This document shows, piece after piece, positions 1,649 to 3,641 of a stretch of 32,604 nt of DNA (position 1 is its first letter; the number at the start of each line of letters is the position of its first letter). The position numbers and the translations under genes were made by a program. The DNA is taken from assembly GCF_944327115.1 (NCBI RefSeq), contig NZ_CALVGS010000055.1, positions 1 through 32,604 on the forward strand. The letters run 5' to 3'. The DNA comes from an uncultured Traorella sp. (GTDB lineage Bacteria > Bacillota_I > Bacilli_A > Erysipelotrichales > Erysipelotrichaceae). A model generated the notes under the pieces. It saw only the letters and a list, made by a program, of their open reading frames with translations, ran no database searches and was not told the DNA's origin.

Positions 1649-2614
1649 TTAGATACAAAGTGTCTTATAAGATACTTTCTGGAATTTAGAAACAGCTTTA
1701 CGATCTGCACTTGATACGATCCAGTCTTCTTTTTTCACCAATTTTAATTTCCATTGTTCATTATAATATGGCTGATAGACATTGTTAGAGAATAGATGTT
1801 TATAACCTAACTTAGTCGGTTCAAACATTTCTAAGGTTACTTCAGCTTCATCACCATCCACCTTTACATCAATGATGCGACAGCTGTGATGGCTCTGATA
1901 TTCACGATCGTCGATATGATTCACCAGATTCATGATACTGACTCTTGTACGCGTATCTTCGCTGATCCCCATTCCCTGCCGGGTTGCATCACGATAGGAA
2001 TAGATACCATCCTCTGTGACATATTGTTTGAATAAATCACTTTGACGGGTATCTACCAGTAACATAAATTCATAGATTCTGCGGATGATATTTTGTTGCT
2101 CATCTGTTTTTTCATACGTTCTTGTTTCATCTAAAAGAACCCTTCTCGGATCATGTTTTGTTTCATCATACAAATGCCACTGCCAATTCTTTTTTGCCCA
2201 ATAAGTATTCCCCATCTGTGCTTCTAAATCAAAAGATACTGCCTTGATCTTATCATTCTCCACGATAAATTTATATTTACCGCCATAAACCAATGGAAAT
2301 ACCTGTCCGTTTACTGAGCTAGTCGCAGACGCTACATTATAAGAAGAATATTCTTTGATAAGAAAATGGAAAACATTACATATGACAACCGATGTATCTT
2401 CTTTTTTATAATCAATCAGATTACTTAAAATATTATATCGATATGAAAAATCTTCATTTAAAGCCAACGCTTTCTTTACCGCTTCTTTTCCGCTTATACT
2501 TCCCAATGTCGAATAATCAATGGTTATTTCCGTATCCAAAAGATCCTCCCATAAATCTGACTCATTCATGATATAGGAATCAAAGAATTTCTTAACCAAT
2601 GAAACAGCTGTCAT
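1649..2614 (-). CDS. Tandem NTF2/SnoaL-like domain protein (second paralogue)
   Basis: 321-residue soluble protein with no signal peptide or membrane segment. Two NTF2-like (SnoaL-like) domains can be made out. The first is at about residues 1-150 ([49 protein letters not shown]). The second is at about 170-310 ([19 protein letters not shown], then paired beta strands ending [10 protein letters not shown]). The first domain matches the neighbouring 349-residue protein at the same landmarks (EYSTVGKAVGIEAIKKML and FPFTFGGVY), so the two genes arose by duplication. NTF2-like folds serve as polyketide cyclases, dehydratases, isomerases or binding proteins; which applies here cannot be read from sequence. 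The ATG at 2614 is chosen because AGGAGG precedes it, inside the upstream gene, giving a 23-base overlap and probable translational coupling. Its position between PTS and GH1 suggests work on the imported glycoside or its aglycone. Confidence 0.75.
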
Positions 2615-3641
2615 CACAGTCACCTCCTATAATATATTCATCAAAGGATACGATATCATCTTCCATAGGAATAAAACGCATTTTCTCTACCGGTTCAAAA
2701 CCGGCCTGTATCTTATATAATTTCCATACACCATCTATTTTTTTCGCATAGATCTTATGTGCTTCTGTCGTGACCATGGAATGAATGTTTTCTCTCGTAT
2801 ATACCTTATCTCTTAAACGGTGTTCCTCACCTCTTGGCATCCATGCGATGGCTGTATCTCCTGTAATGACACAGCTTCCCATACGGTTGGCATGTTCCAT
2901 ATTCGGTTCTTTGTGCTGTTTATATTTTAAGAAATTGACATAATTGCGTTTGCCCGGTTCTTCAGTAAACTGCCACATATCTTCTGTTGCGACACTTAAT
3001 GGCAAGTTGAAATCACCGCGGTCAAATCCAAATGTCTTCTTAAACTGCAATTCAAAAATCTGTTCGACATCTGACTGTGGTTCGCAGTCTTCCGGAATCA
3101 CGGTCCATGGATTATCCAGTTCAGATACGATGACAGGTACATGTCCTGAATAGAGATCCGGACTGATCAGATTCCATTTACCCATTACAAAGCCGTTATT
3201 ATCATCACCATAGCATAGATCAAAGCGAATATGACTGATACGCCAGCCCTTTTCTGTTTTTACATATGAATTACAATAAACTCCTCCGAAAGTAAACGGG
3301 AAGATATTGACACCATCATCAATGGCCATGATGCTTTGGATATAAGCACTTTGCTGACCAAATCCTTCTTTATTGCTTCTTGCGACAAAGCTCCAGATCG
3401 TTGATTTCTTGACATTGCATTCAGGTCCCGGCCATTTCAACATTTTTTTAATGGCTTCAATACCAACCGCTTTTCCAACCGTACTATATTCCGCAATACA
3501 ATCCTCTGTCAGAATTTCATCAAATACATCTAATTCATCACTACGTAGTGCATCCACCAGTTTCGCAAATAATACATACATGGCTTTTCTGTTTTCACCG
3601 GTATAATAATTCAAATATTTATCAAGATATTTTTCGTTCAT
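2592..3641 (-). CDS. Tandem NTF2/SnoaL-like domain protein (first paralogue)
   Basis: 349-residue cytoplasmic protein that I do not recognise beyond its fold. The first NTF2-like domain, at about residues 10-150, has FAKLVDALRSDELDVFDEIL, EYSTVGKAVGIEAIKKML, FPFTFGGVY and ISHIRFDLCYGDDN. The second, at about 185-320, begins near DVEQIFELQFKKTFGFDRGD and ends with GVWKLYKIQAGFEPV. A Trp-rich linker joins them. The C-terminus is acidic and ends near DCDDSCFIG. It is paralogous to the downstream gene, with which it overlaps by 23 bases. The ribosome site AAAGGAG precedes the ATG at 3641. A strong hairpin lies between it and the IIC gene upstream. Two double-domain copies in one PTS operon could form a heteromer with composite pockets. 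Function is unknown; a role in aglycone conversion is inferred from context only. Confidence 0.75.
   Translation of the reverse strand: MNEKYLDKYLNYYTGENRKAMYVLFAKLVDALRSDELDVFDEILTEDCIAEYSTVGKAVGIEAIKKMLKWPGPECNVKKSTIWSFVARSNKEGFGQQSAYIQSIMAIDDGVNIFPFTFGGVYCNSYVKTEKGWRISHIRFDLCYGDDNNGFVMGKWNLISPDLYSGHVPVIVSELDNPWTVIPEDCEPQSDVEQIFELQFKKTFGFDRGDFNLPLSVATEDMWQFTEEPGKRNYVNFLKYKQHKEPNMEHANRMGSCVITGDTAIAWMPRGEEHRLRDKVYTRENIHSMVTTEAHKIYAKKIDGVWKLYKIQAGFEPVEKMRFIPMEDDIVSFDEYIIGGDCDDSCFIG

Follow-up and report, generated by a model that had tools for sequence, protein, structure and literature searches.

Tandem SnoaL_4-like gene pair in a beta-glucoside PTS operon of Traorella and its likeness to the bile acid dehydratase BaiE

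BaiE, the bile acid 7-alpha-dehydratase, is a SnoaL_4 protein (PDB 4leh, 4l8o, 4l8p) that catalyses the dehydration of 3-oxo-delta4 bile acid derivatives, and we take its active-site residues to be Asp35, His83 and Tyr30. In the bai operon BaiA is presumably an SDR. According to PMC10382948, bai operons also encode the flavin oxidoreductases BaiCD and BaiH, and the substrate from which BaiE takes a water molecule is an oxo-steroid; a trimeric BaiE is reported in PMC13101464. Proteins with two NTF2-like domains have already been published, an example being the VirB8 proteins (PMC11753425). BaiE is the top PDB match of the second half of the proteins described below, although a remote one, at E 1e-3 to 1e-4. 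For the first half the top matches in the PDB are two single-domain NTF2-like proteins, the uncharacterised 3b8l and 3ef8, which was deposited as a putative scytalone dehydratase.

The other system to compare with is the lactose/cellobiose-type PTS operon with a GH1 6-phospho-beta-glucosidase, made up of a regulator, IIA, IIB, IIC and GH1. In operons of this kind the PTS is expected to take up a beta-glucoside in phosphorylated form, which GH1 then splits into glucose-6-phosphate and the aglycone. Such an operon is found in the window, by which we mean the whole stretch of 32,604 nucleotides from an uncultured Traorella sp. that was analysed (contig C55 of genome G000; L, G and C numbers denote loci, genomes and contigs), but unlike the standard operons it has two SnoaL genes, P2 and P1, between IIC and GH1. 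Whereas BaiE has one SnoaL_4 domain, a bile-acid substrate and the bai operon, P2 and P1 each appear to consist of two halves fused in one chain, form a set of two paralogues and belong to a PTS/GH1 operon. A literature search of titles and starts of abstracts recognised no publication as describing the pair or the operon.

We propose, with about even confidence, that P2 and P1 are tandem SnoaL_4 paralogues and that P2, probably in complex with P1, does acid-base lyase or isomerase chemistry on the aglycone or on the phospho-glucoside. If this is true, it would be a gut bacterial gene set that alters plant glucosides chemically after uptake, beyond the removal of glucose, with a concrete enzyme and conserved residues open to testing, and a case of a tandem NTF2 enzyme that has acquired a partner subunit. 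The main interest is the testable link of PTS glycoside uptake with chemistry like that of BaiE. Two things are additions to an earlier, sequence-only reading of this DNA: the setting among PTS and 6-phospho-beta-glucosidase genes, and the presence of a BaiE-like Asp/His pair in the second half only.

The operon and its overlapping genes

On the minus strand the order of the genes is PRD regulator, PTS IIA, IIB, IIC, P2, P1, GH1 and a metallo-beta-lactamase-fold (MBL-fold) gene that is cut by the edge of the window (Table 1). With IIA, IIB, IIC, the PRD regulator and GH1 all in one direction it has the make-up of a beta-glucoside PTS operon, and the top NCBIfam matches of the GH1 enzyme are 6-phospho-beta-glucosidase models, every one of them below its cut-off. 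The open reading frame of P1 is listed from a GTG at 2623 (the 324-aa reading). The Shine-Dalgarno sequence AGGAGG inside the 3' end of P2 overlaps this GTG and stands 8 nt before an ATG at 2614, and we therefore place the start of P1 at the ATG, which gives 321 aa and an overlap of 23 nt with P2 and makes the GTG an unlikely start. The sequence-only reading had already pointed to a 23-base overlap with a ribosome site in the upstream gene and to landmarks shared by the first domains, and both are there: EYSTVGKAVGIEAIKK and its 16-residue counterpart are the two proteins' forms of one landmark, and FPFTFGGVY and FPLVYGGKY those of the other.

The same genes occur in Traorella massiliensis (NZ_LT629967.1), with P1 98% and P2 100% identical. 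Compared with the T. massiliensis copy (L005), P2 has six synonymous and no non-synonymous differences and P1 has 12 and 6, and this mostly synonymous divergence fits purifying selection. Compared directly, P1 and P2 resemble each other weakly, with E 0.03 for a stretch of 46 residues.

Table 1. Features of the operon in the window (positions counted from the first letter of the window).
Feature	Coordinates	Strand	Evidence
MBL-fold hydrolase gene start, cut by window end	1..155	-	complete in L005:11469-12242
GH1 6-phospho-beta-glucosidase-type enzyme, directly after P1	168..1634	-	Pfam Glyco_hydro_1 3.3e-118
P1, tandem NTF2/SnoaL_4-like, 321 aa from ATG 2614, downstream member	1649..2614	-	ORF; SnoaL_4 1e-7; Shine-Dalgarno AGGAGG
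P1 His codon (residue 243 from ATG 2614), column of P2 His250	1886..1888	-	23-row alignment
P1 Asp codon (residue 188 from ATG 2614), column of P2 Asp207	2051..2053	-	23-row alignment
P2, tandem NTF2/SnoaL_4-like, 349 aa, upstream member	2592..3641	-	ORF; SnoaL_4 1.2e-7, residues 26-138; family profile
P2 second NTF2-like half (approximate)	2682..3083	-	aligned with BaiE by family profile
P2 Arg270 codon; column is Arg in 19/23 proteins	2832..2834	-	23-row alignment
P2 His250 codon, aligned with first His of BaiE M-H-M-G-H	2892..2894	-	profile-to-BaiE alignment
P2 Asp207 codon, aligned with Asp of BaiE C-L-D-G	3021..3023	-	profile-to-BaiE alignment
P2 first NTF2-like half (approximate), without catalytic-type Asp/His	3171..3599	-	Pfam SnoaL_4 and half-profile PDB matches
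PTS lactose/cellobiose-family IIC	3709..4971	-	TIGR00410 243.8 bits, cut-off 236
PTS lactose/cellobiose-type IIB	4991..5299	-	PF02302 3.9e-15
PTS lactose/cellobiose-type IIA	5292..5615	-	PF02255 7.2e-22
PRD-domain transcriptional regulator with PTS IIB-like and EIIA-2 domains	5632..7539	-	Pfam

The two halves and their polar residues

Direct Pfam matches to SnoaL_4 (PF13577, cut-off 24 bits) cover one half of each protein, residues 26-138 of P2 (32.2 bits, 1.2e-7) and residues 175-269 of P1 in the 324-aa reading (32.4 bits, 1e-7). A search of each half, as the sequence-only reading had suggested, was in this way successful for the first half of P2 and the second half of P1, but the other two halves do not score by themselves, and for the second half of P2 there was no Pfam match at E 0.01. 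In alignment A1, 15 of the 18 whole proteins match SnoaL_4 at E 0.01, and when the halves are searched singly 8 of the 18 first halves and 10 of the 18 second halves do so; the proteins of L006, L028 and L029 have two SnoaL_4 stretches each in Pfam (counted as stretches, the position of the second not being given). Against the PDB, the profile of the first halves has 3b8l (1.6e-5) and 3ef8 (7.2e-5) as its best matches and that of the second halves has BaiE (4leh) on top (E 0.001), and the whole profile of 18 relatives finds 3b8l (1.4e-5) and 3ef8 (7.6e-5), both NTF2/scytalone-dehydratase-like chains, with its first half and 4leh with its second (positions 178-317, E 1.8e-4).

The profiles of the first and second halves also match each other in hhalign (probability 96, E 3.6e-9). 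Single sequences gave only chance-level matches with phmmer against the PDB (best E 0.76 for P2 and 0.067 for P1), and in NCBIfam P1 had no match and P2 a chance-level one. Judging from these profile comparisons, P2 and P1 together probably contain four NTF2-like domains. The duplicated architecture and the paralogy that had been claimed from the sequence are thus supported by the family profiles and by hhalign; the AlphaFold models had a mean pLDDT of 30.0 and 35.1, too low to be of use. These were made from alignment A2, consisting of the two window proteins, and alignment A3 of three sequences, which adds P1 of L005. MAFFT puts the second half wrongly in both, with fragment alignments being no better, and for that reason our statements on residues are based on the 18- and 23-row alignments.

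Like BaiE, both proteins have the aligned Asp and His in the second half (D207/H250 in P2 and D188/H243 in P1). Of the proteins in the 23-row alignment, 21 have the Asp in the second half and 19 have the His; the two are found together in 19, and 18 of these have the Arg as well. The columns of the first half that hhalign places opposite the Asp and the His have Asp in 0/23 and His in 0/23. One column before the His position there is a His in four of the 23, so the exact register matters for this count. Among the polar residues, which the sequence-only reading had wanted checked in each pocket, the Asp/His pair is a feature of the second half, and the first half, with 3b8l and 3ef8 as its best PDB matches, has no such pair. 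The Tyr of BaiE is another difference: five residues before the Asp, 13 of the 23 proteins have Tyr, but P2 has Lys and P1 has Phe. P1 of the window has kept Asp and His and has Met in the Arg column. The P1-line proteins of G112 and G033 and two of the five G206 copies are without the full pair, and the His is missing in two of the four P1-line proteins. Given these losses, Asp/His chemistry of the BaiE type is not usable by every member. By the pattern of Asp, His and Arg, P2 looks catalytic. For P1 the pattern is ambiguous in the window, and in the adjacent pairs of G112 and G033 it appears decayed.

In the mechanism we propose, the PTS would take up and phosphorylate the glucoside and GH1 would release glucose-6-phosphate, as is expected of their families. 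P2 would work by acid-base catalysis with the Asp/His pair of its second half, much like BaiE, and the outcome would be an elimination, a hydration or an isomerisation, either of the released aglycone or of the phospho-glucoside before it is cleaved. Its first half could serve as a fixed, non-catalytic partner in the same chain. This last role is a guess, as BaiE is reported to be a trimer and lends no support to a model of paired halves. P1 would be an accessory partner obtained by coupled translation, which may stabilise or tune P2. A name such as dehydratase would be taken over from BaiE. It could also be that the pair is not enzymatic and is instead a sensor, a chaperone or a detoxifying sponge, in which the tandem NTF2 domains would only bind their ligand, be it the aglycone or the phospho-glucoside. 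We regard this as unlikely, because Asp, His and Arg have stayed together in those 18 diverged members, as an active site would predict, and ene-reductases are found near four loci, even if NTF2-like folds can be binding-only, the first half is devoid of the Asp/His pair, and the P1-line proteins lose His, Arg or Asp.

Pairs, single genes and the spread of the family

The tandem SnoaL pair is real, rare and coherent, and belongs within a known superfamily. With the 18-row profile at 1e-8, 11 of 315 Erysipelotrichales genomes and 8 of 79 genera match. In even samples of the higher ranks, one genome of 395 for the class matches the 23-row profile at 1e-10 and one of 392 for the phylum matches at the stricter 1e-20, each time the window's own genome, in a family survey that covered groups other than Clostridia. 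At the family level, P2 as the only query found 10 of 272 genomes at 1e-5 and P1 as the only query 4 of 272 at 0.001. P2 is present in two of the five genomes listed for the window's genus, and the gene is therefore probably accessory; two of the three genomes that lack it are only 83% and 79% complete.

Adjacent, overlapping P2-P1 pairs are found in three genera, with an overlap of 23 nt in the window and T. massiliensis, 19 nt in L026 (contig C72 of G033) and 4 nt in L025 (G112), and like that of the window the pairs of L026 and L025 have a purine-rich Shine-Dalgarno sequence inside the upstream gene. The P1-line protein of G112 has 251 aa, lacks much of the first half and has no Pfam SnoaL match. 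In a tree of 23 proteins the three P2-line proteins group together with support of 100/100 and the three adjacent P1-line proteins with 86/86. The end branches are 1.42-1.73 in the P1 line compared to 0.43-1.21 for P2, in a tree where the program warns that the placement of long rows is unsure, and P1 is probably a faster-evolving partner of P2. The fourth case, G090, is more difficult. Its protein on contig C4 is closer to P2 (BLAST 5.7e-33) than to P1 (7.4e-7), yet it is placed, together with the P1-like protein of contig C146, weakly (69/88) on the P1 side, and with such a weak placement of both G090 neither supports nor refutes the pairing. A GH1 gene is cut off both at the end of contig C4 and at the beginning of C146, and the two genes may for that reason belong to one operon; the C146 protein has no Pfam match.

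From the arrangement of the genes, hetero-assembly of P2 and P1 is plausible. The alternative is that they are separate enzymes for successive steps and that their overlap is ordinary operon compaction, which would be compatible with the enzymatic readings. The IIA and IIB genes of the same operon overlap too, by 8 nt, and there is a lone tandem-SnoaL gene in 7 of 12 loci (L027, L028, L030, L031, L032, L034 and L062), which means that one tandem-SnoaL protein suffices in general. We still think of it as somewhat improbable, considering that the adjacent overlapping pair recurs in three genera with the P1 and P2 lines apart in the tree, and that in two of these three pairs the active-site residues of P1 have decayed. 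A different arrangement is seen in G206 (contig C25, L033:7507-14018), with five tandem-SnoaL genes, four of them head to tail and two without the Asp/His pair; this array lies near a mannose-type PTS, MFS, GH1 and nitroreductase genes.

Plasmid records searched with P2 gave four clear matches from Priestia and weak ones from Rhizobium, Cupriavidus and others, and those from Rhizobium and Cupriavidus align across both halves. The plasmid proteins of Priestia (L006), Rhizobium (L064) and Cupriavidus (L065) have the same two halves, with Asp, His and Arg in the second. Close to their genes are those of LLM-class flavin oxidoreductases and of an alkene reductase or an NADH:flavin oxidoreductase. 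Unlike in the window, the annotation of these stretches, in gene tables that are incomplete, lists neither a PTS gene nor another tandem paralogue. The LLM oxidoreductases near L064, L065 and L006 are of the TIGR03571 family, alkene reductase genes are seen near L064 and L065, and in L064 a single-domain SnoaL_4 gene adjoins the tandem gene. Viral contigs had no pattern match for the two queries, P2 and the Priestia protein, and PHROGs no match at 0.01.

Neighbouring genes in twelve loci

Twelve distinct loci were counted, with L063 and L029 treated as one and the window taken together with L005/L035. The neighbours come from BLAST comparisons with seed proteins, and many were typed by Pfam; as not all open reading frames were typed and some contigs stop short of 9 kb, the true numbers of neighbours may be higher than those given here. 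All 12 loci have PTS genes within 9 kb, 11 of them with an IIC like the PF02378 family and one (G206) with mannose-type IIA, IIB, IIC and IID. In these genomes a locus would have a PF02378 EIIC within 9 kb by chance with a probability of 0.04-0.31, and the product over the 11 loci, calculated by hand, is about 2e-9, a figure that assumes an independence which the related loci only partly have. GH1 is within 9 kb in at least seven of the 12 loci (L005, L027, L028, L029, L030, L032 and L033), and OYE in at least four (L026, L029, L031 and L062), where about 0.4 would be expected from a hand sum.

Dehydrogenases (Fe-ADH, SDR or AKR) are found in at least five loci, a count without a background rate: AKR in L025, Fe-ADH and SDR in both L029 and L034, Fe-ADH in L031 and SDR in L062. 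In L062 the SDR, an OYE with an FAD domain and the tandem SnoaL gene overlap by 1 and 4 nt and are followed by PTS genes. The family thus resembles the bai operon in that, elsewhere than in the window, its gene is found near OYE-type flavoenzymes and SDRs, and the recurrence of such redox partners suggests, by analogy, that an oxidised ring undergoes elimination or isomerisation. The most complete copy of the window's operon is that of L005, and there neither an OYE nor a dehydrogenase was detected within 9 kb of the pair, so in Traorella the aglycone may simply be hydrated or isomerised or undergo an elimination. A bolder idea, to which we give a low probability, is that gut Erysipelotrichales have PTS-fed modules that oxidise, dehydrate and reduce imported plant glycosides or their aglycones with a dehydrogenase, a tandem SnoaL protein and an OYE, in parallel to the dehydroxylation of bile acids, and that the dehydratase of the Traorella branch would be a hetero-pair of tandem proteins with one catalytic and one decaying member.

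Hydrolase families that include lactonases (MBL, PTE and 7-bladed) are present in at least six of the 12 loci, again a count without a background rate. L005, L025 and L034 have MBL-fold genes, L028 has a gene of the 7-bladed lactonase family, and in L027 and L032 the SnoaL gene has a PTE-family gene beside it. Together with the Fe-ADH or SDR genes of L029, L031, L034 and L062, these hydrolases could speak for an enzyme directed at the sugar, which would eliminate from or hydrate a keto-glycoside or an oxidised phospho-sugar made by a dehydrogenase, with the neighbouring hydrolases opening lactones. The three hydrolase families are broad, however, their role as lactonases is putative, and GH1 of the 6-phospho-beta-glucosidase type requires no oxidised sugar, and we find such an enzyme distinctly unlikely.

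In L027 (3772-5699) and L032 (8993-10917) the phosphotriesterase-family gene is directly 3' of the tandem SnoaL gene. Past the operon, L005:12756-18093 holds a second PTS/GH1 set that includes a glucose-type PTS and another MBL-fold gene. Inspection by eye of the rest of the window found an SDR-like open reading frame and a divergent TetR-like regulator frame at 15068-16486, about 11 kb from the pair, and transposase-like genes or fragments at the far end of the contig (26486-32604).
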